In this document: positions 591 to 20,179 of the stretch, piece by piece | Layout: each line of letters begins with the position of its first letter | How positions within the stretch are numbered: position 1 is the stretch's first letter | DNA from: an uncultured bacterium | Lineage (GTDB): Bacteria; Actinomycetota; Actinomycetes; S36-B12; CAIKAW01 | Assembly (NCBI GenBank): GCA_903825575.1 | Contig: CAIKAW010000024.1 | Coordinates: 1 to 41,095, forward strand | Direction of reading: 5' to 3' | Length of the DNA stretch: 41,095 nucleotides | The notes under the pieces: generated by a model | What the model saw: the letters and a program-made list of their open reading frames with translations, nothing else | The model's database searches: none | What the model was told of the DNA's origin: nothing | Made by a program: the position numbers and the translations under genes

Positions 591-2921
591 CTACGAACGC
601 GGGCGTTCCTTGTCGGGGTCATAGAATGGGAAGCGCACGACGGTCGCCGGAATCCGCTTCTGTAGCCCGTCGAGTTTGCCGATCTCCAACTGAGTTCCGA
701 TCGCCGAATGCTCGACCGCGACGCGGGCCAGTGCAATGTTCTTGCGCAGCAACGGTGAACGCACACCCGAGGTCACCACGCCGATTTGTGGGCGGCCACT
801 GTGCACGCAGTCGCCGTGACTTGCAGTCTCGTTACCTTCGATCTCAAGACCGACGAGCACGCGGCCCGGATTGGCCTTGCGACGCTCAACCGCCGCGCGG
901 CCAAGGAAGTCTTCGTCTGTGGTCTTGAGTCCGACCGCAAAACCAATGCCTGCCTCAAACGGATCGGTCTGGTCGTCGAACTCATGACCGGCGAACACCA
1001 GTCCCGATTCGATCCGCAACACGTCGAGCGCATCCAGGCCAAGCGGTGCAATTCCGTGCGGCTCACCAGCAGCGAAGATCGCATCCCAAACCTGCGCTCC
1101 CGCATCGGGGTGGCACCAAACTTCGTAACCAAGTTCACCGGTGTAACCGGTGCGGGACACCATCAATGGCGGGCCATTCGGGCCACCAAGGCGACCGATG
1201 GTGAACGAGAACCAAGTCAGATCAATGAACGCGGGCTGTGCCGGCGAAGTCCAAATCAAATCGGCCAGAACTTCGCGGCTCTTGGGTCCCTGCACCGCAA
1301 TGTTGTGCAAGTTGTCGGTCGATGGACGCACCCACACCTTGTCCAGTCCCAATTTCACAGCCAAGTCGCGCAGCCAGATGCCATCGAACTCTTCCCCGCC
1401 CACGAAACGGAAGTTGTCGCGGTCAATCCGGTAGACCGTGGCGTCGTCCATCATGCCGCCGGTCTCATTGCACAAAGCGGTGTAGACAACCTTGTTGATG
1501 GACAACCGGCGGATGTCGCGCGTGCATGCTGCCTGCAGCAAGGACTCAGCGTCGGGCCCGAGAACCTCGAACTTGCGCAGCGGCGACAGATCGCACACTG
1601 CAACCCGCTCACGGCAAGCCCAGTACTCAGCTTCGGGACCATGACTCGAGAACGAAGTCGGCAACCAGTAGCCCCTGTACTCGGTCATTCGGCCAGTCAG
1701 CTCACGGATGCGGCCGGTGAAGCCGGTGTCCTTGGTGAGCACGGGTTCGGCATTGGCAGTCACTCGGTGAGCCACCCCTCGGGAGAAATTTGCGGAAGAC
1801 GGGTAGACCCGCACTCCGATCGGAGTTGGCACCCAGCCGTTAGCGGGGTCAATGTCATCGGGACAAGCTGAAGATGCGCAAACAAGATCGGTGGCAGCCC
1901 GCAGCAACACGTAATCGCCAGGGCGTGACCACGGTTCGTCCGAGAAGATCAGGGTCGCGCTGTCTAGGAACGTGTTGAAGAAGAAGTTGATCGCTGGCCA
2001 GCCCTTGTGTGGTGCGATCTGGTAGGGCGCTAGCGCCCCGTTGAAGTTGTCCGAGCAGTTGATGTGACCGAAGTAGCCGCGGTCTTCGTAGTACTTCGCG
2101 GTGCAGGCGTAGCCGAAAGTGTCATGGCGCCCGACCGTGTCGCGAACGACCTCAACGAGCGGACGCATGTCTTGATCGAAGAACTTCGAATACAAGCCCG
2201 GTGTTGGGATCGTGCGGCCCCCGATGGTGCGGGTCGCGGTGGAGTCGATCTCTTTAATGACGCCGCTGTCGAGAGCGCGTTGGTCGAAGGCAAGAAAGTC
2301 CGAACACTGGCGGCCCTCGAGATCGACGATCTGAATGTAGTCGCCGGCCTTAACCTCGTAAGTCAGCGCACACGACGCGTCGACAACGATGTCCAGTGTG
2401 GGTTCGGCCAAGAGTTTCGGCGTAACGAAGGTTCCGGCTACTGGCACGAGGGCCCGGTAAACCATGATTGCTAGTTCGGTGGCTAGTCCTGATCCGTCGG
2501 GCTGCATCGGGCCACCAGGAGCGACGACAACCAGCGAGGCCGCACTGTCGAAGGTGAGTCTTACGCAGTCGCCAGCCCGCGAACCAGCGCCCAACACGTG
2601 GGCAGCCGAAGCAGTCTCGGGGTTGACGCCCAATCCGGCCACGTACGCGGTCAGGACGCCAGCGTCTGGGTGTGCAGATTTGGAAAGTGCCGCAAGACCA
2701 CCGGCCGGTCCTGATGCCTTCAGGCCGGCAGCCGCCAGCAGATCCACACCGCTGGCGCCGACAGCCAGAACTTCGGCCGCCTGACCCCCGTGTAGGTCGG
2801 TGATTTCGACGATGTCCCCGGCCGCAATCGCCACGACTGTTGCCCCGCCACCTGCCACCGGGTATCGCTCAATCCCAGGGCCAGGAAGAACAAGTCCGCG
2901 GGAAGAAGTGTCGGTCAGCAC
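591..2921 (-). CDS. tdm: Trimethylamine N-oxide demethylase (DUF1989 + GcvT fusion), Tdm
   Basis: A cytoplasmic fusion protein of 776 residues. Known Tdm splits TMAO into dimethylamine and formaldehyde, and its C-terminal half can pass the one-carbon unit to tetrahydrofolate. Residues 1-165 are a degenerate DUF1989-like repeat. Residues about 170-390 are the intact DUF1989 domain, with RQCSDF at 204-209 (Cys206, Asp208) and Cys273, Cys289 and Cys353 as probable metal or catalytic residues; that assignment is from memory of the family, not an alignment. Residues about 400-776 are a GcvT-type tetrahydrofolate-binding domain (SRTGYTGELGYEVW, GLDALDVLRIESG). The start is GTG with GGAGG at 2932-2936 about ten bases upstream. 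It lies downstream of the permease on the same strand and close to tmm, which supports TMAO as substrate. The main alternative is another DUF1989-GcvT fusion of unknown substrate. Confidence 0.88.
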   Translation of the reverse strand: MLTDTSSRGLVLPGPGIERYPVAGGGATVVAIAAGDIVEITDLHGGQAAEVLAVGASGVDLLAAAGLKASGPAGGLAALSKSAHPDAGVLTAYVAGLGVNPETASAAHVLGAGSRAGDCVRLTFDSAASLVVVAPGGPMQPDGSGLATELAIMVYRALVPVAGTFVTPKLLAEPTLDIVVDASCALTYEVKAGDYIQIVDLEGRQCSDFLAFDQRALDSGVIKEIDSTATRTIGGRTIPTPGLYSKFFDQDMRPLVEVVRDTVGRHDTFGYACTAKYYEDRGYFGHINCSDNFNGALAPYQIAPHKGWPAINFFFNTFLDSATLIFSDEPWSRPGDYVLLRAATDLVCASSACPDDIDPANGWVPTPIGVRVYPSSANFSRGVAHRVTANAEPVLTKDTGFTGRIRELTGRMTEYRGYWLPTSFSSHGPEAEYWACRERVAVCDLSPLRKFEVLGPDAESLLQAACTRDIRRLSINKVVYTALCNETGGMMDDATVYRIDRDNFRFVGGEEFDGIWLRDLAVKLGLDKVWVRPSTDNLHNIAVQGPKSREVLADLIWTSPAQPAFIDLTWFSFTIGRLGGPNGPPLMVSRTGYTGELGYEVWCHPDAGAQVWDAIFAAGEPHGIAPLGLDALDVLRIESGLVFAGHEFDDQTDPFEAGIGFAVGLKTTDEDFLGRAAVERRKANPGRVLVGLEIEGNETASHGDCVHSGRPQIGVVTSGVRSPLLRKNIALARVAVEHSAIGTQLEIGKLDGLQKRIPATVVRFPFYDPDKERPRS

Positions 2922-3011: not shown

Positions 3012-4484
3012 TTATACGAGCTCAGACTCGGGGTGAATCTGCTCGGACGTGTCGCGCCACTGGAACTTCTGCTTGTCCTGTGCCACACGTCGAATCACGA
3101 ACAAGATCGCACCGATGAGCAAGATGACCGGTCCGAGAAGCAGCTCAGTAGAGATGCCCAGGATCTTGTTACCCGATGCGTAGCCGGTGGCCGAGAAGTT
3201 GGTTAGAGCAATCAAGGTGAATACCAAGTTGGCAACCACCATTACGCCTGCAACAACCAACCAGCCCGTCTTGAGCTTGTAAGGCCGCGGCCAGTTGGGA
3301 CGAGTGCGGCGCATAAGGATGACGCCACTGAGCGCGAAGATGTGAGCCATGATGTAGCCAAGGTTGCTGGCGGCAAGAATCACCAAGTTGCTGTCGAATA
3401 CCAGCAGCAGCAAGATGTTGAAGACCGAGTCGACCGTCATTGCGCGACCCGGAACGTGATGCTTGTTGAGCACACCAAGTTGCTTGAGGGTCATACCGCC
3501 GCGCGAGATGCCATACAGCGCGCGCGACGCGTCCATCGTGGCCGTATTCATGGCGAGCAAGAGCCCGGCAATTAGCAACACAGTCGCAATGCTCGACCCG
3601 GCACCGATGATGGTGGTCAGCGCGGTTACAACGTAGGCGCCGTTCGCGCCAGCGTTGATCTGGTCCATCGACAAGGTCCCGGCAACGCCGAGTGGCAGCA
3701 GGAAGTACACAACGAGGCTGAACGCTGATGCGGTTAGCAGCGCCTTGCGGGTGTCGTGAAGTTCCTTGAATTCCGGTCCGAACGAAGCAACACCTTCGAC
3801 GCCGTATGCCGACCAGCCCATCAAGTACAGCCAGACCAGCGCGACCTTCCAGCCGTCATTCCAACCGTGAACTGTCCAAGCCATGTTCGATGAGTGGAAG
3901 TGTCCGCTGAAGAACGCGCCGAACATGATCACGCCGAGCGGGATCAGCAGCAGTGCGCCGGTGATGTAAGTCAGATTGACTCCAACGCGCATCCCGCGAG
4001 TGTTCAAGAACCAAATACCAATGATGCAGCCGATGCCGATCAGCTTGGCCAGCGTGATGTGCCCAAGCCCGTCGAAGATGTTCAAGGTGTTGGATGAGAA
4101 CCACTGCGCCTGAATGAGCGTTCCGATGAGCATCCCGTTGATCGCAAGCACGGCCGACCAGCCGAACCAATACCCGAAGGTGATGATTGGCCCGATCAGC
4201 GTGGTCTTGCCCTTCCACGCCTCGTTTGCGTAGAGCGCGATGCCGCCCGATTTGTCCGGGAACATCAAGGCCGGCTCTTGATAGATGAAGGCCTGGCAGG
4301 CGCCGATGACCATCGACAACATCCAGAACACGACGGTGCCCCAGGTGCCGAGCACCGCGTAGGTGAAGCCCAGTGCCGAGATCAGGAAGCCAGGGCACGC
4401 AAGAGAAACGACGAAGCCGTCCCACCAACGCAGTGACTTAAGAAGTTCTCGATCGTGAACTTCGACGTACACTCCGGACGACAT
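3012..4484 (-). CDS. APC-superfamily amino acid/amine permease
   Basis: An integral inner-membrane protein of 490 residues with about 12 hydrophobic segments and a short charged C-terminal tail. It is typical of the amino acid-polyamine-organocation (APC) superfamily; the GFVVSLACPGFLISALGFTYAVLG stretch near the start matches the glycine-rich first helix. The reading frame has a TTG codon immediately before the ATG. I chose the ATG at 4484 because GGAGG sits six bases upstream of it. The substrate is not readable from sequence. Its position directly upstream of tdm and divergent from tmm makes a methylated amine, TMAO or a related quaternary amine a reasonable inference. No TmoXWV-type ABC transporter genes are present in this cluster. 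Confidence 0.85.
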   Translation of the reverse strand: MSSGVYVEVHDRELLKSLRWWDGFVVSLACPGFLISALGFTYAVLGTWGTVVFWMLSMVIGACQAFIYQEPALMFPDKSGGIALYANEAWKGKTTLIGPIITFGYWFGWSAVLAINGMLIGTLIQAQWFSSNTLNIFDGLGHITLAKLIGIGCIIGIWFLNTRGMRVGVNLTYITGALLLIPLGVIMFGAFFSGHFHSSNMAWTVHGWNDGWKVALVWLYLMGWSAYGVEGVASFGPEFKELHDTRKALLTASAFSLVVYFLLPLGVAGTLSMDQINAGANGAYVVTALTTIIGAGSSIATVLLIAGLLLAMNTATMDASRALYGISRGGMTLKQLGVLNKHHVPGRAMTVDSVFNILLLLVFDSNLVILAASNLGYIMAHIFALSGVILMRRTRPNWPRPYKLKTGWLVVAGVMVVANLVFTLIALTNFSATGYASGNKILGISTELLLGPVILLIGAILFVIRRVAQDKQKFQWRDTSEQIHPESELV

Positions 4485-4606
4485 CAAAATCCTCCAAGGA
4501 TTACGGTGACACGAAGACGCGATACGGGCCGCTGGATACTATGCCCGGTTTCCGGCGATCCGCAAGGGTCCTGCGGCCCCAGAAATGGGAGTTGGGATGG
4601 TGGGCA
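4485..4606. promoter_or_regulatory. Divergent intergenic region, permease versus zinc-ribbon gene
   Basis: This 122-base gap separates the minus-strand permease from a plus-strand small membrane protein, so it should contain promoters in both directions. On the plus strand TACTAT at 4537-4542 is a good -10-like hexamer, but no -35 hexamer at normal spacing is convincing. An ATG overlapping this hexamer (4541) is in frame with the downstream gene and is unlikely to be its start. The minus strand shows only the strong GGAGG of the permease. Confidence 0.3.
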
Positions 4607-5085: not shown

Positions 5086-6429
5086 ATGTCGAGACTGGCC
5101 ATCATCGGAGCCGGCCCCAGTGGCTTGGCGGCGCTTCGTGCTTTCGAATCCGCCCGCAACGGCGGGGCCGAAATCCCCGAGCTGGTGTGCTACGAACGCC
5201 AAAGTGACTGGGGCGGCATCTGGAACTACACCTGGCGCACCGGGCTCGATGCCCACGGTGAGCCGGTCCACGGGAGCATGTACCGCTACCTGTGGTCCAA
5301 CGGCCCCAAGGAATGTCTTGAGTTCGCCGATTACTCCTTTGAGGAACATTTCGGCCGGCTGATTCCGTCGTACCCGCCGCGCGCAGTGCTCCACGACTAC
5401 ATCGTCGGACGCGTCGAGAAGTCGCGCGTGCGCCCGTATATCCGCTTTGAGACGACCGTGCGCTGGGTTGAATACAACGAGACCACGAAGAAGTACCTGG
5501 TGCGCTCGCATGATCTGAAGGCCGACACATATTCGGACGAAGAGTTCGACTGGGTCATCAACGCGTCCGGGCACTTCTCGACCCCGAACGTGCCTTCATT
5601 CGAAGGACTGGACAAGTTCCCCGGCCGGGTTATGCATTCGCACGACTTCCGCGATGCGGTTGAATTCGCCGACAAGGACGTACTTGTTGTCGGCAGCAGC
5701 TACTCAGCCGAAGACATTGGCATCCAGTGCCACAAGTACGGCGCCAAGTCTGTGACCTTTAGTTACCGCCACAACCCGATGGGGTTCACTTGGCCAGAGT
5801 CGCTGGATGAACGCCCGCTGCTAACAAAGGTTGTTGGCCGTACCGCACACTTCTTGGACGGATCAACCAAGGATTTCGACGCGATCGTTTTGTGCACCGG
5901 CTACCTGCACCACTACCCCTACCTACCCGACTCACTTCGGCTGAAGACCGACAACCGGCTCTTCCCACTGGGTCTCTACAAGGGGATCTTCTGGGAGGAA
6001 CAGCCGACGTTCATGTACCTCGGCGCGCAGGACCAATACTACACTTTCAACATGTTTGATTCCCAGGCTTGGTATGCACGCGATGTCATACTCGGCCGCA
6101 TCGAACTGCCGAACGCAGAAGTCCAGCATGCTGACTCGCTCGTATGGCGGGCCAAGGAAGAGGCCTGCCAGAACGCAACGGACGATATCGACTTCCAGAC
6201 CGAGTACATTCGCGATTTGCTGGGCAGCACCGACTACCCGCCGCTCGACGTTGAGCATGTCGCTGCCTTGTTCAAGGAATGGGAGCACCACAAGGAGGAG
6301 AACATCCTCACCTACCGCGACCGCTCGTACCCGTCCGTCCTCACTGGCAAGGTGTCGCCAAAGCACCACACGGACTGGCTGGGCGCGTTGGACGACTCGA
6401 AAGAAGCCTTCCTCGCGTCAGGTGACTAG
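5086..6429 (+). CDS. tmm: Trimethylamine monooxygenase (flavin-containing monooxygenase), Tmm
   Basis: A cytoplasmic class B flavin monooxygenase of 447 residues that oxidises trimethylamine to TMAO with NADPH and O2. The FAD-binding motif GAGPSG is at residues 8-13, the FMO signature FPGRVMHSHDF at 178-188, and the NADPH-binding GSSYSAED at 203-210. Segments such as DWGGIWNYTWRTGLD (41-55), HGSMYRYLWSNGPKE (62-76) and the C-terminal PKHHTDWLGALDDS closely match bacterial Tmm as I remember it, and length is typical. It lies next to tdm and the dimethylamine monooxygenase genes, completing TMA to TMAO to DMA. It is convergent with the DUF3445 gene, with only 15 bases between the stops. Activity on other amines or sulfides, as for other FMOs, is possible. 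Confidence 0.93.
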   Translation: MSRLAIIGAGPSGLAALRAFESARNGGAEIPELVCYERQSDWGGIWNYTWRTGLDAHGEPVHGSMYRYLWSNGPKECLEFADYSFEEHFGRLIPSYPPRAVLHDYIVGRVEKSRVRPYIRFETTVRWVEYNETTKKYLVRSHDLKADTYSDEEFDWVINASGHFSTPNVPSFEGLDKFPGRVMHSHDFRDAVEFADKDVLVVGSSYSAEDIGIQCHKYGAKSVTFSYRHNPMGFTWPESLDERPLLTKVVGRTAHFLDGSTKDFDAIVLCTGYLHHYPYLPDSLRLKTDNRLFPLGLYKGIFWEEQPTFMYLGAQDQYYTFNMFDSQAWYARDVILGRIELPNAEVQHADSLVWRAKEEACQNATDDIDFQTEYIRDLLGSTDYPPLDVEHVAALFKEWEHHKEENILTYRDRSYPSVLTGKVSPKHHTDWLGALDDSKEAFLASGD

Positions 6430-6444: not shown

Positions 6445-7485
6445 TCAGTCCGGGAAGGTTCCAGCTGAGGTCTGCGCGCCGTCGTCGAATTGAGACAGGT
6501 ACTGCAAAACCGAAGGCCGGGTCATGGTCAATCCCTTGTAGTCGGCCAACTCGTCTGGCAGGTCACGCAGAACCCGGTGCAAACGCCGGCCCCATTTAGG
6601 AATCGTCACCAGGTCCTGCAGCGAGATCAGGTAGCAGCGGATTGGGAACACGATGGCGTTAGAACGAGGTAGGCGCCACAGGCTCTGCAATTCGACTCGC
6701 AGGTACATGTACTCGCCGGCATTCTCCGGTGTCACTGTTGCGCGATCCACGCCCCACTTCGCGTAGTTCTCCGGGCTCGTGTCGAGCCGTGGATGCACCG
6801 TCATCGTCCAGTTCAATCGACGCACTGGCTGACCTTGGCGAAGATTGAGTAGGAACTTCAAAGCTCGCTCAAACACTCCAAGTTCATGGGCGAGCGGAAC
6901 TGGCCCGTGCCATTCCATGAAGTTCATGCCGATGTCAAAATCTAGCGACCAGTCGGCTTGGGTGGTGATTACGCCGGCATCCATCCAAAGGTTGTCGTCG
7001 CGCTGATCCAGCAAGGCGTAGTCACCCTGGGTCTGGCGCATGATGTATTCCATTGGTCCATACGGCAGCGTCGTGTTGTCAAGGAATGTAAAGGTGTCAT
7101 CGATCCCAAGGGGTCTGTTAATCCAGTGCCAGCGGTCACCGTCTTGGTGCAACTCAAACCACTGCGGATAACTCTCGCTGAGATTCGTCATCAGGAGCTC
7201 CAGCAAGTCCCAGCCAGCCAGATTCATGTGCGGCAAAGACTGACTGCGTAGCGGATCCTCATTAAGCACCAGGGCCCGGTCGGCTACTTCCGATACGTAG
7301 TGCTCATCGACATCAAATGGGTGCTCATAAACCGAGCCAGGGCGGAAGGAAACGTGCGGCTCAATATTGACCGAGTACATGTACTTGTCCTCGGGGAAGG
7401 GGAACGGGAAGCGCGCGATCGCTTCGGCGCTGTTGTGGTACGTGAAATCGCCACGGAAAGTTTCAGTGTTGAACTCGATAGTCAT
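6445..7485 (-). CDS. DUF3445 heme-dependent oxidative N-demethylase, dimethylamine monooxygenase subunit
   Basis: A soluble protein of 346 residues of the DUF3445 (heme-dependent oxidative N-demethylase) family. It is the likely oxygenase component that converts dimethylamine to monomethylamine and formaldehyde. Visible family signatures are the WHGPVP segment at 192-197 and the QSLWRLPRSNAIVFPIRCYL block at 267-286. The ATG has GAGGAG about six bases upstream. It is the last gene of a minus-strand set, 24 bases after the ferredoxin-reductase gene and downstream of the DmmA-like gene. This three-gene combination is the known dimethylamine monooxygenase set (DmmABC). I give no subunit letter because I cannot verify the naming from sequence. 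Confidence 0.88.
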   Translation of the reverse strand: MTIEFNTETFRGDFTYHNSAEAIARFPFPFPEDKYMYSVNIEPHVSFRPGSVYEHPFDVDEHYVSEVADRALVLNEDPLRSQSLPHMNLAGWDLLELLMTNLSESYPQWFELHQDGDRWHWINRPLGIDDTFTFLDNTTLPYGPMEYIMRQTQGDYALLDQRDDNLWMDAGVITTQADWSLDFDIGMNFMEWHGPVPLAHELGVFERALKFLLNLRQGQPVRRLNWTMTVHPRLDTSPENYAKWGVDRATVTPENAGEYMYLRVELQSLWRLPRSNAIVFPIRCYLISLQDLVTIPKWGRRLHRVLRDLPDELADYKGLTMTRPSVLQYLSQFDDGAQTSAGTFPD

Positions 7486-7509: not shown

Positions 7510-8484
7510 CTAGCGATCCAGGACAAGTTCGCGCCCTTCAAAACGAGAAACACATGGCATCACTTTCTGGCCCCCCGCGTGTTCGTCGTCGGTCAAGTAG
7601 TGGTCATTGTGCAACAAGGTTCCGTCGAAGGAAATAACGCGGGTTTCGCATTGGCCGCAAGCGCCGCCGCGGCACAAGTACGGCGCATCAACACCGGCGG
7701 CCTCAATAGCTTCGAGCATGCTTTGGTGCGGACCAACCTTGATCGACAGGTCTGAAGCTGCCAGCCGCACTTCGTAAGGACTCCCTGAGGGCGGGGCTAG
7801 GAATCGTTCGGAGTGCAGATTCTGGGCCGGCCACCCAAGTCCCTCGGCTGTCGATAGCACCCAGTTCATCATTCCGCCCGGGCCGCAAACGTAAAGGTGC
7901 GTCCCGAGTGGTTGGGCGGCGAGCAAGGTGGTGAGTGGAATCTGCTCGCCTTGATCATCGCGGTAGATCGACACCCGCTTGCCGTAAGTGTTGCGCAGTT
8001 GATCAAGATAGGCACCATCGTTCTCCGAACGCACTGCGTAATTCAGTTCAAATGCATCCCCGTAGCGCGCTAGCTCGCTCATCATGGCTAACGTCGGCGT
8101 AATCCCAATGCCACCGGCAAAGAGCAAGTGCTTGCGTGCGCGCCTATCGATTGGAAACAGGTTCACAGGGTGGCTCAAGCGTAATAGCGAACCGACCGTA
8201 ACCCGGTCGTGCATGAACATCGAGCCGCCACGACCACCCGGATCGCGACGCACCGAAATGTTGTATGCGTCAGTGGCTCCCGGCGAACTCATTAAGGAGT
8301 AAGGATTGCGCCGTAGCGTGTCACCGTCTTCCATTTCCACCACAACGTGCGCACCCCCCGCGAAAACAGGAAGCGGCTTGCCGTCGGTGGGCTCAAAGCG
8401 GAACCGCTTGATCTCCGATGTGACATCAACGATCTGTGTGACACGCACGTCAATCTTTGGGGTGCGATCCGCCGACTTCGTCAC
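7510..8484 (-). CDS. Flavin/2Fe-2S oxidoreductase of dimethylamine monooxygenase
   Basis: A phthalate-dioxygenase-reductase type electron-transfer protein of 324 residues. The flavin-binding RNPYSL is at 59-64, the pyridine-nucleotide site GGIGITP at 124-130, YVCGPGG at 198-204, and a C-terminal plant-type 2Fe-2S domain has CRGGACGQC (Cys271, Cys276, Cys279) plus Cys311. It would pass electrons from NAD(P)H to the DUF3445 oxygenase. Its start overlaps the end of the DmmA-like gene by four bases (ATGA), indicating translational coupling. Alone the family is generic (VanB-like); the partner genes give the substrate assignment. Confidence 0.88.
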   Translation of the reverse strand: MTKSADRTPKIDVRVTQIVDVTSEIKRFRFEPTDGKPLPVFAGGAHVVVEMEDGDTLRRNPYSLMSSPGATDAYNISVRRDPGGRGGSMFMHDRVTVGSLLRLSHPVNLFPIDRRARKHLLFAGGIGITPTLAMMSELARYGDAFELNYAVRSENDGAYLDQLRNTYGKRVSIYRDDQGEQIPLTTLLAAQPLGTHLYVCGPGGMMNWVLSTAEGLGWPAQNLHSERFLAPPSGSPYEVRLAASDLSIKVGPHQSMLEAIEAAGVDAPYLCRGGACGQCETRVISFDGTLLHNDHYLTDDEHAGGQKVMPCVSRFEGRELVLDR

Positions 8485-9083
8485 CGAAAGGCCTCCTCTG
8501 GATCGGGAGCCGTTCCAGGCATTTCGGCATCCACGCAGACACCTTGGAAGGCCCCGATTCGGCGGGAGTAGTGATCACGAACGAGCAGCATCAATCCGCA
8601 GTGAGCGCATTTCGCAGGTTGGGTCGTGACGTCCTCGGTGATTCCCTTGCAATGAACACACTGCACGCGCCGAGCTTCGGATCCGCGATGCTCCCGCTGG
8701 ATTGAGGCCTGATCAACACCGGCAGCCAGCGCGACCACCATGGCTTGGCCGATCATCCCTTCGGTACCGGCGAGGTAGATCTGTGTGCCCATATGGGCGT
8801 TAGCCAATTCGACGGCCAGCCGAGGCAAGGCAGCTGCGACGGTTGGGCCAACGTAGAAGGCGGCCGGGTTAAGGGCCTGCAATGCGCTCTCAAAACCACG
8901 GCCCGCGGCAGCTCGCGGGATGTAGCAAATATGCGCTCGCTCGAAGAACCCCGGCGACGCTGTGGTCGCTAGGTCAAGGATTGCCTGTGCACCTTCGCCA
9001 TCAGCCATGAAGAGGTGCAGCGTCCCAGTACGAGCCACAAGCGGGCTGTAGATGGGCCGACTCTTAATGCCTTCTACCAACAT
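8481..9083 (-). CDS. dmmA: DmmA-like subunit of dimethylamine monooxygenase
   Basis: A soluble protein of 200 residues. The N-terminal 135 residues look like a nucleotide-binding-reductase-like fold (YLAGTEGMIGQAM at 103-115). A C-terminal rubredoxin-like or zinc-ribbon domain has CVHC at 142-145 and CAHC at 159-162. This two-part structure matches the DmmA-like family. It is required with the reductase and the DUF3445 protein for dimethylamine oxidation in the characterised marine system. It is first of three tightly linked genes and overlaps the reductase by four bases. The Shine-Dalgarno sequence is weak. Whether the four cysteines bind iron or zinc cannot be told here. Confidence 0.82.
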   Translation of the reverse strand: MLVEGIKSRPIYSPLVARTGTLHLFMADGEGAQAILDLATTASPGFFERAHICYIPRAAAGRGFESALQALNPAAFYVGPTVAAALPRLAVELANAHMGTQIYLAGTEGMIGQAMVVALAAGVDQASIQREHRGSEARRVQCVHCKGITEDVTTQPAKCAHCGLMLLVRDHYSRRIGAFQGVCVDAEMPGTAPDPEEAFR

Positions 9084-9152: not shown

Positions 9153-10289
9153 CTACTTGGCAGAGCGCTTGAGTTTCTTCGGGTCATCGAAGGTGATCGT
9201 ATGTGCGATCGCAGTCGCTGTGACGTTGGCGCCACGCACCTCAAGCGGGGTTCCCTGAACCGCGACCGCTACATCCATCCGAGCGATTGCCATTGAGCGT
9301 TTTGTAAGGCGCGAGTACATCCCGCATGTGATGACACCGACCTTCTTGCCGCCGGCCCACAGTTCATCGCCCTCTGACGTGGCGTGGTCAGAGTCAACCA
9401 GCACACCGAAGATCTTGAACCGCTCCTGCCCCTTCAGGCGGTAGTGCTCTTCTGCGCCGCGGAAACCGGTCTTTCCGGGGGACACGGTGAAATCAAGACC
9501 GAGTTCCCAAAGGGTGTCGCCCGGGCCTTCGTTCTCGAACGGGTACATCTGCGAGTTGTCATATGGGAAGAAGAGCAGTGAACTCTCGACGCGAAGCCAA
9601 TCAAGGCAGGTGAAGGCCGCCGGGATAATTCCCAACTCCTTACCTTCGCCAATAATCGTGTCCCAAATCTCCAGCGCATCCTCACGCCGACAGAAGATTT
9701 CGTAACCGCGTTCTCCGGTGTAACCGGTACGAGAGATCATCACGTGCTTGCCGAACAGGGTTGTCTGCAGCTGGTGGAAGTACGGCAGTTCCCGAATACC
9801 TGGGACGTGCTTGCTCAAGTACTCGACCGCAAGCGGGCCCTGAAGTGAGAGGTCCTGCAAGTCATCATCGAAGAGAACAGCGACGTTCTTTCCCGCGGCC
9901 GAGCGCAAGAGTTCTTCATGGCCTGAACCTGAACCGTGAACGACCATCCAGGCGTTGGGCCCAGTGCGGTAAAGGATGCAGTCGTCGGCGAACTTTCCGG
10001 CGTCGTTCAGAATCGCTGCGTAGATCGAGCGACCAGGGTAGATCTTGCGTACATCGCGCGTCGTTGTCAGCTGGAGCAGGTGGTGTGCGTGCTCGCCGAC
10101 GACGTGAAGTTTGCGTAGCCCAGACACATCCATGAGCGCGGCCTTAGTGCGGACCGCTTCATGCTGGTCGGCCAAATCGCTCGTTGAGTACGTCCAAGCG
10201 GTCTCCATGCCATTCCAGTCCTCGAGATCCGATCCGAGGGCCCGGTGGCGGGCGGCCAGCGGTGAGCGGCGCCAAGACATAACACTCAT
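9153..10289 (-). CDS. GcvT-family tetrahydrofolate-dependent aminomethyltransferase-like protein
   Basis: A stand-alone GcvT/YgfZ-family protein of 378 residues with the SRTGYTGERGYEIF signature and a C-terminal barrel domain (VGVITCGMYSRLTKRS). It is not a glycine-cleavage T protein by context, since no gcvH or gcvP is nearby. It heads the gene set that encodes dimethylamine monooxygenase and resembles the C-terminal half of Tdm in family. A role in transferring the methyl-derived one-carbon unit onto tetrahydrofolate is the best inference. The characterised DmmDABC system has a fourth gene, and this could be its counterpart, but I cannot confirm that. The longer in-frame ORF reaches 10409. 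I chose 10289 because GGAG lies about six bases upstream and the extra 40 residues look non-coding. Confidence 0.8.
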   Translation of the reverse strand: MSVMSWRRSPLAARHRALGSDLEDWNGMETAWTYSTSDLADQHEAVRTKAALMDVSGLRKLHVVGEHAHHLLQLTTTRDVRKIYPGRSIYAAILNDAGKFADDCILYRTGPNAWMVVHGSGSGHEELLRSAAGKNVAVLFDDDLQDLSLQGPLAVEYLSKHVPGIRELPYFHQLQTTLFGKHVMISRTGYTGERGYEIFCRREDALEIWDTIIGEGKELGIIPAAFTCLDWLRVESSLLFFPYDNSQMYPFENEGPGDTLWELGLDFTVSPGKTGFRGAEEHYRLKGQERFKIFGVLVDSDHATSEGDELWAGGKKVGVITCGMYSRLTKRSMAIARMDVAVAVQGTPLEVRGANVTATAIAHTITFDDPKKLKRSAK

Positions 10290-10525
10290 GCGGTTCTCCA
10301 GTTCTAGTTTCGATCCGTTCCCGGTCTGTGTCCCCGGGACCTTACCCACCGGCCTGCCCATTGGCGACCCCTGAGCACGTGGCGCAACTTGCGTGTTGCC
10401 AAGACCCAAGGTGTTCGACCCCTCACCCGGTGGTGATATCCATGAGGAGCGGGCACTGTCAGTCTCACAGGAATCACACAGGTTTCCTCCACAAAGCGAT
10501 CAGGTTCCTTCGCTAGAAATGGCGC
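10290..10525. promoter_or_regulatory. Divergent leader between the dmm gene set and a membrane protein gene
   Basis: This 236-base gene-free stretch must carry the promoter of the minus-strand GcvT-dmm set and of the plus-strand membrane protein gene. It contains the imperfect palindrome GGCGCAACTTGCGTGTTGCC at 10381-10400 and a GGTGTTCGACCCCTCACC dyad at about 10411-10428. It also holds a self-complementary GTCCCCGGGAC at 10330-10340 inside CCGGT...ACCGG arms. It matches no riboswitch class I can recall. On the plus strand TAGAAA (10514-10519) lies about six bases from the ATG at 10526 and could be a -10 element for a leaderless mRNA. Confidence 0.35.
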
Positions 10526-11993: not shown

Positions 11994-12806
11994 ATGAGTA
12001 ACGGCACCGAACGTCGTCGCATTACCCGGATTAGTTCTGGGGTGCGCGAGGAAGTTTCCGACCTGATCGCCACTGAGGAACCACTGGTCATCGAGGTGGA
12101 TGGCACCGTGGTCAGTACGACGATGCGAACGCCCGGGCACGACCTTGAACTGACTCTGGGTTGGCTCGTGTCCGAAGGTGTGGTCACTAGCCCAGGCGAG
12201 ATCGTGACGGCGCAGGAATGCGTAGACCGCCCGACGCCGGACGAAGAGGCGCGGCTCGTTCGGGTGGTAACTCGCGGCGGCAAAGCACCGCAGGCCCGGC
12301 TCACCCCAACCTCAAGCGCCTGCGGAATCTGTGGCTCAGACCTAGTCGAACGCACGTTGGCTCAGTCCCCCTGGCCGCTCGACTTAGACGAAGTACGAAT
12401 CCCCTTGCCACAACTGCTCGGCTTGCCAGATCTGCTACGCGAGGCCCAACGTGGATTCTCAGGGACCGGGGGGTCCCACGCGGCCGGACTCTTTGATACC
12501 AAGGGAAACCTGGTCGTGGCACGCGAAGATGTGGGGCGGCACAACGCCGTCGACAAGGTGGTCGGTCACGCCCTAGCCGGGGAAATGCTGCCCCTTCGCG
12601 GCCATGTGCTGCAGGTGAGCGGGCGGGCGTCGGCCGAACTTGTTCACAAATGTGTCCGGGCCGGAATCCCAATCATGGCCGCAGTGTCGGCGCCATCGAC
12701 CTTGGCAGTGGATCTGGCCCGCGCGGCCGGTTTGACGTTAGTCGGCTTCAGCCGGGGTGAGGGATGCAACATCTACTCCGGGGCCGAACGGGTCGTCGAC
12801 GCCTGA
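11994..12806 (+). CDS. fdhD: Formate dehydrogenase accessory sulfurtransferase FdhD
   Basis: A cytoplasmic protein of 270 residues. FdhD transfers sulfur from IscS to the molybdenum cofactor of formate dehydrogenase and is needed for its activity. The CGIC motif at 110-113 is the conserved CxxC, and the segment from GSHAAGLFD through DVGRHNAVDKV is the family signature. Length is usual for FdhD. No formate dehydrogenase gene is in the window. A link to the methylated-amine cluster is plausible because formaldehyde from demethylation can be oxidised through formate, but that is inference. The ATG has only a weak GGAACG upstream. It converges on the bldC-like gene, with 13 bases between them. 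Confidence 0.93.
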   Translation: MSNGTERRRITRISSGVREEVSDLIATEEPLVIEVDGTVVSTTMRTPGHDLELTLGWLVSEGVVTSPGEIVTAQECVDRPTPDEEARLVRVVTRGGKAPQARLTPTSSACGICGSDLVERTLAQSPWPLDLDEVRIPLPQLLGLPDLLREAQRGFSGTGGSHAAGLFDTKGNLVVAREDVGRHNAVDKVVGHALAGEMLPLRGHVLQVSGRASAELVHKCVRAGIPIMAAVSAPSTLAVDLARAAGLTLVGFSRGEGCNIYSGAERVVDA

Positions 12807-16126: not shown

Positions 16127-16939
16127 TCACAGCCGACCGCCTGACGTCCCGTCCGAGAGTCGTTGGGCCAGATAGACCGGCAAGATGAACAGGATCACGA
16201 GGGCAGCAGCCACCGCGTTGACGATTGGGCCTTGGTTTGGCCGGAAGAGGTTGTTGAAGATCCACTGTGGCAAGGTCTCGATGCCGGCGCCCGCCGTGAA
16301 GGTGGTCACCACAATCTCGTCAAAGGAAAGGGCGAACGCCAGCAGGCCACCCGCGACCAGAGCGGACCGGATCGCGGGGAAGGTCACATGTCGGAAGGTC
16401 TGAAGTCCGGTGGCTCCGAGATCGGCCGATGCTTCCTCTAATGACGTACCGGCGCGCCGCAACCGAGCGACCACATTGTTGAAGACCACGACGATGCAGA
16501 AGGTGGCGTGCCCAAGAACCACCGTAAGCAGGCCGAAGCTGATGCCGACATAAGGCAGAACGGTCGAAAACGCAGAGTTGAGCGCGATACCGGTGACGAT
16601 GCCAGGCAAGGCGATCGGAAGAATCACCAAGAAGCTGACGGCATCGCGCCCAAACCACGTGTAGCGCGCCACGGCGAACGCGATCATCGAGCCGAGCACA
16701 ACCGCTATGAACGTTGCACCAAGCCCGGCGCGCACGCTCGTCCATACGGCATGCCGAACACCCACGTCAGCCAGTGCCTTGTCCCACCAGACGAACGAGA
16801 AGCCACGGGGTGGCCAAGAGAAGACCTTCGAGGGATTGAAAGAGTTGACGATCACCACGAGCAATGGCAGATAGATGAACAGCAAGGTCACCGCCGATGC
16901 CGCACCTAGGAGGTATCGAGCTCGACGCGAAAGAGTCAT
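16127..16939 (-). CDS. ABC transporter permease, PotC-like (polyamine type)
   Basis: An inner-membrane permease of 270 residues with six predicted hydrophobic segments. The cytoplasmic coupling loop is SLEEASADLGATGLQTFRHV, the EAA-type motif that docks with the ATPase. It is the fourth gene of a PotA-D-B-C-order operon and begins seven bases after the PotB-like gene. With its partners it would import a polyamine or other small cationic amine. The substrate cannot be read from the permease. Confidence 0.88.
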   Translation of the reverse strand: MTLSRRARYLLGAASAVTLLFIYLPLLVVIVNSFNPSKVFSWPPRGFSFVWWDKALADVGVRHAVWTSVRAGLGATFIAVVLGSMIAFAVARYTWFGRDAVSFLVILPIALPGIVTGIALNSAFSTVLPYVGISFGLLTVVLGHATFCIVVVFNNVVARLRRAGTSLEEASADLGATGLQTFRHVTFPAIRSALVAGGLLAFALSFDEIVVTTFTAGAGIETLPQWIFNNLFRPNQGPIVNAVAAALVILFILPVYLAQRLSDGTSGGRL

Positions 16940-16946
16940 CAGCGGC

Positions 16947-17855
16947 CTACAAGTTCTCTAGCGCGCCAGTACGGCGCACGGCAGCCAGATAGAGAATGAC
17001 TACAACGATCGGGAACATGGCTGCAGCAGCAGCAAATGGAAGGTTCCCGGCAATTCCGATGTTGTCGTAGACGATGTTCGCGAACATCTGATTACTTCCT
17101 CCGACAATCTTCACCATGATGTAGTCCCCGAGTGTCAGCGAAAACGTGAAGATCGAGCCTGCAACGAGTGCGGGAATGATCATTGGGACCACGATGGAGC
17201 GGAAGGTGCGGCCAGCCGCTGCGCCTAGATCGGCCGAAGCTTCAAGCAAAGATCCCGGCAAGCGTTCGAACCCGGCGTATACCGGCAACACCATGTAGGG
17301 CAGCCAAACATAGGCAAGCGCGCAAATAGTCGCCGGTAGCCCCAGCCCAGGGCCGTGTAGTCCAAGTGGTTTAAGCGCCCAGTCCACGGCACCGTTTCGG
17401 TCAAGCATCACTTGCCAGGCGTAGCCCTTGACCAAGTAGGAAGTCCACAAAGGCATCGTTACTGCGATCACCAAGATGTATTTCATTCGCCGCGTGCGGA
17501 CCACTTTGGCAATGAAGAATGCGAGCGGTAAAGCCAACAAGGCATCAACAACTGTCACTCCAACAGCTATCAGCAGCGTACGAACCGCAACCGTTCGATA
17601 GATGGGCTGTGTGAATAGCGTGTGGTAGTTGGCAAAAGACGTTTTGCGGATGATCGCGCCGGTGAAGTCGTCAGTGGACCACAAGGACGAGATGAGCATG
17701 ACGAGCAATGACCCCAGGTACAGCACCCCGAGCCAGAACAGTGGGGCCGAAAGTAAACCGGTCAGCCGCCAACGCGGATGTCGGTAAGCAGTAGCCGACA
17801 ACCGTCGAGGGAGACTTTCGTCTCCCTCGACGGTGTCAGCGATTTGTTGTGACAT
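16947..17855 (-). CDS. ABC transporter permease, PotB-like (polyamine type)
   Basis: An inner-membrane permease of 302 residues from the chosen start. It has a cytoplasmic N-terminal tail of about 30 residues and six hydrophobic segments. Its EAA loop is SLLEASADLGAAAGRTFRSI. A longer in-frame start exists at 17888, but the ATG at 17855 overlaps the stop of the binding-protein gene (TGATG), which indicates translational coupling, so I chose it. It forms a permease heterodimer with the next gene. Confidence 0.87.
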   Translation of the reverse strand: MSQQIADTVEGDESLPRRLSATAYRHPRWRLTGLLSAPLFWLGVLYLGSLLVMLISSLWSTDDFTGAIIRKTSFANYHTLFTQPIYRTVAVRTLLIAVGVTVVDALLALPLAFFIAKVVRTRRMKYILVIAVTMPLWTSYLVKGYAWQVMLDRNGAVDWALKPLGLHGPGLGLPATICALAYVWLPYMVLPVYAGFERLPGSLLEASADLGAAAGRTFRSIVVPMIIPALVAGSIFTFSLTLGDYIMVKIVGGSNQMFANIVYDNIGIAGNLPFAAAAAMFPIVVVILYLAAVRRTGALENL

Positions 17856-19057
17856 CAGCCCTTGATCGTTGTCCAGGCTTGGACCCACTGTGAGTAGTCA
17901 ACACAGATTGGCCCACGACCGTCCAGGCAATCAGTTGTCGGTGTCGTCCAGTAACTGATCTTCGCCGCGTAGGCCGCGTCGAGGGCATGGAACTGGTCGC
18001 AGAACCCGGCAGTGGCAACGGCACACGACGTGGACTGTGCAGGTGCCTCGCCGAACCATTCGGCGACTTGATCGTTAACCTTCTGCGAGGTAATCCAGTC
18101 CATCCACTTGTACATGCAGTTCGGGTGCGCTGCATGGGCCGCGATCATCCACGTGTCCGACCACCCAGTGGCGCCTTCGGTCGGTACCGCGGTATCGACC
18201 GCGATCTTCTTGTCAGCGTTGATGATGTTGGCATTGATCTGCCATGCCGTTCCGATAACGCTAGTGCCATGCTCGAAGGCAGTGACCTCATCGGTGTAGG
18301 CCGCCCAAGGCTTGTCCCACATCGTTCGTTGGGTCTTCATCAGCGCAACCGCGGCCTCGAACTGCGTCTGATCTAAGGCGTAAGGATTCGTGATCTTCAG
18401 GTCCGGCTTCGTAGACATCAGGTACAACGCAGCGTCTGCAATGTAGATCGGTGAATCATAGGCAGTGATCTTCCCCGCATACGGGGAACTCGCCTCGAAT
18501 ACCGACGACCACGAAGTTGGCGCAGTCGTTACTACTGCCGGGTTCCACATCAGGACGTTGGCGCCCCACCCGTGCGGGATCCCGTACATCTGCCCGCTCA
18601 CTGAGTTCCACGGCTTGTCCTTGAGGAATGGCGAGATCGTCGCGTAGTTGGGAACCAGTGCCGTATTAACCGGGGCGACAACTCCGCCATAAATAAGCCG
18701 GAGCGTCGCATCCCCCGATGCCGAAACCCCGTCGTACTGGCCAGTCTTCATCAGCGTCACCATCTCGTCGCTGGTGTTGCCGATCTTGGCGTTCACCGTA
18801 CAGCCGGTGGCCTTCTGGAAGGGGGTAACCCAGTCGACGGTCTTGTCATTCGAACCGTTCTCCGCGTACCCGGCCCAGACGACGATGTTCAGGGCGCCTT
18901 CACCCGCACCGACACTCTGCGCCATCGGCACGCTCGGCGGCGCCTGGTGAGAGGGGCTAGCACTTCCCGACGGGGTCGAACTACTTCCGCAGGCCGCTAG
19001 CAACAGCGCGGTAGTCGAAACTCCGACCGCCCACATCTTCGTACGGTTCCTGTGCAC
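17855..19057 (-). CDS. ABC transporter substrate-binding lipoprotein, PotD-like
   Basis: A secreted lipoprotein of 400 residues. Residues 1-22 form a type II signal peptide with lipobox LAAC (Cys23), followed by a Ser-rich linker. The mature part (NIVVWAGYAENG, then periplasmic-binding-protein type II fold) resembles spermidine/putrescine-binding proteins of the PotD/PotF group. Two cysteine-containing loops near the C-terminus (SCAVATAGFC, DCLDGRGPICVDY) may form disulfides. The start is GTG with GGGAGG just upstream. Exact ligand is unknown; polyamine is the family default. Confidence 0.87.
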   Translation of the reverse strand: MHRNRTKMWAVGVSTTALLLAACGSSSTPSGSASPSHQAPPSVPMAQSVGAGEGALNIVVWAGYAENGSNDKTVDWVTPFQKATGCTVNAKIGNTSDEMVTLMKTGQYDGVSASGDATLRLIYGGVVAPVNTALVPNYATISPFLKDKPWNSVSGQMYGIPHGWGANVLMWNPAVVTTAPTSWSSVFEASSPYAGKITAYDSPIYIADAALYLMSTKPDLKITNPYALDQTQFEAAVALMKTQRTMWDKPWAAYTDEVTAFEHGTSVIGTAWQINANIINADKKIAVDTAVPTEGATGWSDTWMIAAHAAHPNCMYKWMDWITSQKVNDQVAEWFGEAPAQSTSCAVATAGFCDQFHALDAAYAAKISYWTTPTTDCLDGRGPICVDYSQWVQAWTTIKG

Positions 19058-19111
19058 TTGCCCTCCCTAGTGCTCACGCCCGGGCCCCCTGCCCGGATCG
19101 GATGCCACCCA

Positions 19112-20179
19112 TCAACCGATCTGAAACTCATGCTCCCGGCGCCAAACCAATTTGATCCTTCGATCTCGGTATTCATTTACCTGCATAGAAGACGTTTCGA
19201 GATTCTGCCGCAGGGCGACGAGTTCAGCACCAGCGTCAAGGCCGACCACGAATCTCGTCGCATCACCTACGTAGACCACTTCGCGTACAACGCCGACGGC
19301 ACTGTGCTCGTCCGCATCAATACCGTCGGACTCAGCCACCAGGCGGATCTTTTCCGGACGGATGCTAAAAACGCCGGGTCGACCAATGATCGACTGCGCC
19401 GATTCGCCTCGCAGAAGATTCGACGTGCCAACGAATCCAGCGACGAACTCTGTGGCTGGTCTTTCGTAAACGTCGGCAGGCGACCCGATCTGTTCAATCC
19501 GACCGTTGTTGAACACCGCGATTCGGTCCGACATCGTCAACGCCTCATCTTGATCGTGCGTCACAAAGACAAAGGTGATGCCGACATCGCGCTGGATTGC
19601 CTTGAGTTCGACCTGCATCTGCTCACGAAGTTTGAGGTCGAGCGCACCGAGTGGCTCATCGAGCAAGAGCACCCGGGGGCGATTGACTAGAGCCCGGGCA
19701 AGGGCCACACGTTGGCGTTGCCCGCCCGATAGTTGCGATGGCCGACGGCCGCCATATTCCTCGAGCCGCACGCTGGCCAGCGCGGCGTCCGTACGTTCTT
19801 TGCGCTCAGACTTGGCAACTTTCTTCACTCGCAGGCCGTACTCAACATTGGTCCGAACATCAAAATGCGGGAACAACGCATAGTCCTGGAACACCGTGTT
19901 GACATCGCGCTGAAATGGGGGGCGTTGCGAGACGTCAGCGCCGGCAAGTTCGATGCGACCGGACGTTGGCAGTTCAAAGCCGGCAATCATGCGCAGTACC
20001 GTTGTCTTGCCGGACCCGGAGGGACCGAGCAACGTTAAGAACTCGCCGTCAAATATGTCTAGATCAATATCGGCGACTGCCACGACATCGCCGAACTCCT
20101 TGCGCAAGGCCCGCAATCTCACCGCAGGCACACCTGCAACACCGGAGCCAGCCAACTCCGTTGCAAGCGCAGAAGTCAT
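19112..20179 (-). CDS. ABC transporter ATP-binding protein, PotA-like
   Basis: A cytoplasmic ATPase of 355 residues. Walker A GPSGSGKT is at 52-59, the LSGGQ signature at 150-154, and Walker B LLLDEP at 171-176. The C-terminal about 100 residues form a TOBE-type regulatory domain, as in PotA/MalK-group importers. It heads the four-gene set, and the binding-protein gene begins 54 bases after its stop. The ATG is preceded by GGTGGGATGGT. It starts 57 bases after the sterol-carrier-like gene, so it might be read from the pur operon; a weak CCGGTG/CACCGG hairpin at 20228-20248 lies between. Confidence 0.93.
   Translation of the reverse strand: MTSALATELAGSGVAGVPAVRLRALRKEFGDVVAVADIDLDIFDGEFLTLLGPSGSGKTTVLRMIAGFELPTSGRIELAGADVSQRPPFQRDVNTVFQDYALFPHFDVRTNVEYGLRVKKVAKSERKERTDAALASVRLEEYGGRRPSQLSGGQRQRVALARALVNRPRVLLLDEPLGALDLKLREQMQVELKAIQRDVGITFVFVTHDQDEALTMSDRIAVFNNGRIEQIGSPADVYERPATEFVAGFVGTSNLLRGESAQSIIGRPGVFSIRPEKIRLVAESDGIDADEHSAVGVVREVVYVGDATRFVVGLDAGAELVALRQNLETSSMQVNEYRDRRIKLVWRREHEFQIG

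Follow-up and report, generated by a model that had tools for sequence, protein, structure and literature searches.

A predicted DmmD, the GcvT-fold subunit of dimethylamine monooxygenase, in a trimethylamine gene cluster of an uncultivated actinobacterium

Introduction

The closest described counterparts of the locus reported here are the dmm clusters of Paracoccus aminophilus and Ruegeria pomeroyi, where dmmD (SPO1579 in R. pomeroyi) is the first gene of dmmDABC. dmmDABC was described in a marine survey, where its carriers were Alpha- and Gammaproteobacteria. A role for DmmD in passing formaldehyde to tetrahydrofolate (THF) has already been hypothesised (Lidbury 2017, PMC5520151; Dziewit 2015, PMC4543880; both citing Zhu et al. 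2014), and formaldehyde and THF condense too slowly on their own to sustain a flux (PMC7073904). Direct biochemical proof of this THF role was not found in the accessible literature. R. pomeroyi dmmABC alone oxidises dimethylamine (DMA) in Escherichia coli (PMC5520151), so the oxidation as such can proceed without DmmD.

The published dmmD phenotypes conflict. P. aminophilus dmmD mutants fail to grow on DMA and show a weak effect on trimethylamine (TMA) (PMC4543880), whereas R. pomeroyi dmmD::Gm carrying dmmABC grows on DMA and not on TMA or TMAO (PMC5520151). The R. pomeroyi phenotype is not predicted by simple relief from formaldehyde released in DMA oxidation.

Two other families resemble DmmD. 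The glycine-cleavage T protein, GcvT, shares its fold and folate-site residues but needs a lipoyl-H protein. The GcvT domain of the TMAO demethylase Tdm (PDB 9Q5A) has the same conserved residues and belongs to an enzyme of formaldehyde-releasing N-demethylation, yet it is fused to DUF1989 and lacks a 10-residue insertion present in DmmD.

The gene cluster

The window, the whole 41,095-nt stretch of DNA analysed, carries an intact open reading frame at 9153..10289 on the minus strand that encodes a complete, stand-alone GcvT-fold protein of 378 aa (Pfam GCV_T, 204 bits; GCV_T_C, 36 bits), annotated here as dmmD, a putative THF-binding subunit of dimethylamine monooxygenase. Its length falls in the range of the DmmD class (about 375-380 aa), and a Shine-Dalgarno-like GGAGAA, read from the sequence, lies at 10294..10299 (minus strand), upstream of the ATG at 10289. 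Three genes follow on the same strand: dmmA (8481..9083), with both DmmA Pfam domains (PF22290, PF22289) and a match to NF041259; dmmB (7510..8484), a flavin/2Fe-2S reductase with FAD, NAD and 2Fe-2S domains; and dmmC (6445..7485), the haem oxygenase subunit (DUF3445/HODM alpha; PF11927). Their products are 54%, 57% and 70% identical to DmmA, DmmB and DmmC of P. aminophilus. The intergenic gaps from dmmD to dmmC are 69 nt, -4 nt and 24 nt, and with a common strand and such tight spacing dmmD is co-transcribable with dmmABC.

A sequence-only reading of the window had placed a GcvT-family protein at the head of a minus-strand set with DmmA-like, reductase and DUF3445 genes, and had seen neither gcvH nor gcvP beside it. 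The Pfam matches and open reading frame map agree with both statements, since neither gene is among the open reading frames around dmmD. Elsewhere in the same genome there are a canonical GcvT above the NCBI cut-off and, on contig C31, a GcvP.

The window DmmC is a full-length homologue of the alpha subunit of HODM from Pseudomonas mendocina (PDB 5LTE; E-value 2.3e-143). The purified Pseudomonas HODM holoenzyme reportedly contains a tetrahydrofolate cofactor. The loci differ in gene order, however: dmmD comes last in the Pseudomonas-type loci examined (A-B-C-D) and first in the window.

As in P. aminophilus, tmm and tdm lie near dmmD. The trimethylamine monooxygenase gene tmm (5086..6429, plus strand) matches NF058570 at 807.7 bits against a cut-off of 675, and tdm (591..2921, minus strand), encoding DUF1989 and a GcvT domain, matches NF053776 at 1123 bits against a cut-off of 1100, its product being 51% identical to P. 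aminophilus Tdm. Between them, an APC permease gene (3012..4487, minus strand) has a weak, below-cut-off resemblance to the TMAO permease TmoP. Near the cluster lies fdhD (11994..12806, plus strand; PF02634), encoding a formate dehydrogenase accessory protein with a putative link to C1 oxidation. Further along, a complete spermidine/putrescine-like ABC transporter is encoded between purF and purL (16127-20179, minus strand); it comprises two permeases, an ATPase and a YdcS-like binding protein, and may import amines. The window has no matches to Rfam families.

Identification as DmmD

Sequence comparison and phylogeny identify the product of 9153-10289 as DmmD, the GcvT-fold auxiliary component of dimethylamine monooxygenase, an enzyme of four parts (DmmDABC). 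Full-length alignment with the DmmD of P. aminophilus JCM 7686 (pAMI6), a protein characterised by genetics, gives 58% identity over 374 aa. The comparison with R. pomeroyi DmmD that the sequence-only reading had proposed was made with the Ruegeria conchae protein as a stand-in for SPO1579; it likewise gave 58% identity over the whole length, and the R. conchae genes are ordered dmmDABC. Identity is higher to a Rhizobium homologue (72%) and to two same-order actinobacteria (88% and 80%), and falls to 30% against the GcvT half of the window Tdm.

A maximum-likelihood tree was built from 50 GcvT-fold domains, 26 of them DmmD rows; Msil_3605 of M. silvestris, 36% identical to SPO1579 (PMC5520151), lay outside this sample. 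All 26 DmmD rows form one group with support 100/100, the window DmmD inside it, and a 100/97 branch parts DmmD and the Tdm GcvT domains from canonical GcvT and the sarcosine/dimethylglycine-type domains. The nearest large family to DmmD is the GcvT half of Tdm.

Scores against curated profiles separate the protein from its relatives in the same way, and known DmmDs show the same pattern of scores. A GcvT identity was rejected at 143.5 bits against the NCBI cut-off of 235.85 and by its separate clade. The SoxA/dimethylglycine (DMGDH) identity was discarded on the missing fused FAD domain, a score of 86.8 bits against the SoxA cut-off of 1164 and a different clade, and that of the DMSP demethylase DmdA on 92.6 bits against 410. 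Nor is the protein a free-standing Tdm domain, having no DUF1989, 230 bits against the Tdm cut-off of 1100 and its own place in the tree. The placement among sarcosine- or DMSP-related GcvT enzymes that would have spoken against the earlier reading was thus found neither in the tree nor by the curated cut-offs, and its suggestion that 9153-10289 is the fourth gene that growth on methylamines requires is borne out: that gene is dmmD, by the 58% identity, the 100/100 clade and the synteny described below.

Fold and conserved residues

An AlphaFold model of the window DmmD (mean pLDDT 88) matches structures of GcvT, DMGO, DMGDH, SoxA and DmdA at TM about 0.8-0.86, several of them folate complexes. 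Asp103 (codon 9981..9983, minus strand) aligns with Asp97 of E. coli GcvT (PDB numbering), the aspartate mutated in PDB 3A8K (D97N), and is kept in DmmD, Tdm, GcvT and DMGDH/SoxA-type rows. Glu193 and Glu197 of the GYTGERGYE motif (codons 193-197 at 9699..9713, minus strand) and Arg233 (9591..9593, minus strand) are invariant in all the GcvT-fold groups compared. The residues common to THF enzymes are invariant across the 26 DmmD sequences.

One segment sets DmmD apart. Residues 251-260 (FENEGPGDTL; 9510..9539, minus strand) form an insertion absent from Tdm and GcvT, with G257, D258 and L260 invariant in DmmD; it may be a docking loop.

Synteny and distribution

Among dmmD loci in named genomes, dmmA at the least is present in 79 of 80. 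Where the flank is long enough, dmmA, dmmB and dmmC all lie beside dmmD without exception (54/54 homologous loci), which excludes a chance neighbourhood. By comparison, tdm is near dmmD in only 31 loci. Either folD or purU occurs within the flank in 19 of the 54; in many Rhizobium loci both directly adjoin dmmD, as expected if the product of DmmD is methylene-THF.

There are two main arrangements: D-A-B-C in alphaproteobacteria, a Chloroflexi MAG and the window, and A-B-C-D in the Pseudomonas type. A 555-kb plasmid of Pseudomonas aeruginosa RW109 carries dmmABCD, dmmD last, and also an ammonium transporter and glutamate-synthase-like genes. A Leisingera plasmid (locus L033, 4427-7074) has an MttB-family trimethylamine methyltransferase-like gene immediately followed by one for a DmmD-like GcvT protein. 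This protein is 42% identical to the window DmmD and falls with DmmD in the tree, but it lacks the DmmD insertion and has no dmmABC in its 13-kb stretch.

The DmmD of the window and those of two other actinobacteria group with Lichenifustis, an alphaproteobacterium, at 100/99 (window; loci L010, L011 and L037), and a close dmmD homologue was found in only two of the same-order relatives searched. Both the grouping and the patchy occurrence fit transfer of the cluster between phyla, and the dmm cluster has probably moved horizontally in this way.

One-carbon metabolism of the host

The host genome, about 2.2 Mb, contains one FolD, an Fhs and a formate dehydrogenase, as found by single-family searches; PurU gave no match over the cut-off. 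On another contig (C11; locus L129, 1148-7763), a gmaS-like type III glutamate-ammonia ligase gene, mgsABC-like genes, a SoxB-like dehydrogenase gene and an XRE regulator gene likely make up a methylglutamate pathway. The host could therefore take trimethylamine via TMAO, dimethylamine and methylamine to ammonium.

A mycothiol-dependent formaldehyde dehydrogenase scores 669 bits against a cut-off of 513. Its gene, for an S-(hydroxymethyl)mycothiol dehydrogenase, is directly followed on contig C86 (locus L130, 5360-7080) by one for an MBL-fold hydrolase, and the pair constitutes a THF-independent formaldehyde route. The mycothiol enzyme and a BldC-type regulator are in line with an actinobacterial host. 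Marine bacteria have been argued to depend on the THF route alone for formaldehyde (Lidbury et al.), an argument that does not transfer to this host because of its mycothiol-dependent dehydrogenase. THF capture by DmmD need not be essential here.

Proposed function of DmmD

The reading preferred here, given a probability of roughly 85%, is that DmmD within DmmDABC hands the formaldehyde produced by Dmm, or a hydroxymethyl-amine, to THF as 5,10-methylene-THF. As established for the family, DmmB, with DmmA, would draw electrons from NAD(P)H and deliver them to DmmC, the haem subunit, which would convert dimethylamine to methylamine and formaldehyde. Fold and residues suggest that DmmD binds tetrahydrofolate in the pocket common to GcvT and Tdm, where the released formaldehyde, or the hydroxymethyl-amine preceding it, would combine with the cofactor to give 5,10-methylene-THF. 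FolD, a reverse-acting Fhs and formate dehydrogenase, all encoded in the genome, could then oxidise the one-carbon unit, the flux itself being a prediction. With the GcvT half of Tdm as its nearest large relative, the earlier suggestion that DmmD performs as a separate protein what the fused GcvT domain performs in Tdm is a fair reading. A bolder version is tentative and rather unlikely: DmmD would dock on DmmC via loop 251-260 and take a bound N-hydroxymethyl or imine intermediate, never free formaldehyde, making Dmm a channelling oxidative demethylase with its folate site in trans.

The R. pomeroyi phenotype, failure on TMA and TMAO with growth on DMA (PMC5520151), fits a different division of labour, in which DmmD serves the reaction of Tdm, or the TMA pathway as a whole, taking up Tdm formaldehyde or supporting Tdm, and is merely co-transcribed with dmmABC. 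The closeness of the Tdm GcvT half in the tree and the presence of tdm in the same window agree with this. It is nevertheless improbable: Tdm has a GcvT domain of its own, loss of dmmD in P. aminophilus prevents growth on DMA and has only a weak effect on TMA (PMC4543880), and dmmABC, unlike tdm, adjoin dmmD in every locus with enough flank.

DmmD might instead act structurally or as a regulator, stabilising the complex or adjusting its speed, its folate site a relic. Activity of dmmABC alone in E. coli, and the slower reaction once dmmD was added (PMC5520151), would suit such a role; the chance of it is nonetheless slim, given the invariance of the THF-enzyme residues in all 26 DmmD sequences and the folD or purU genes that often adjoin dmmD. 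There is next to no chance that the gene lies beside dmmABC by happenstance and encodes a surplus GcvT or an enzyme acting on sarcosine, dimethylglycine or DMSP. The common fold and the GcvT-family Pfam match are all in keeping with that idea, but the protein scores under the NCBI cut-offs for GcvT, SoxA and DmdA, the genome has its canonical GcvT and GcvP elsewhere, and the 100/100 clade together with the 54/54 synteny already refutes it.

Implications

dmmD is an already described gene, and only its actinobacterial host is new. The window DmmD agrees with those of P. aminophilus and R. pomeroyi in length, fold and first place in dmmDABC, but it belongs to an actinobacterium that has an additional mycothiol formaldehyde dehydrogenase. 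In this uncultivated member of the phylum the genes leading from trimethylamine to methylamine, dmmD among them, appear to be complete. With predicted THF capture alongside a mycothiol formaldehyde pathway, the host is a test case for whether DmmD is for detoxification or for keeping carbon on folate.
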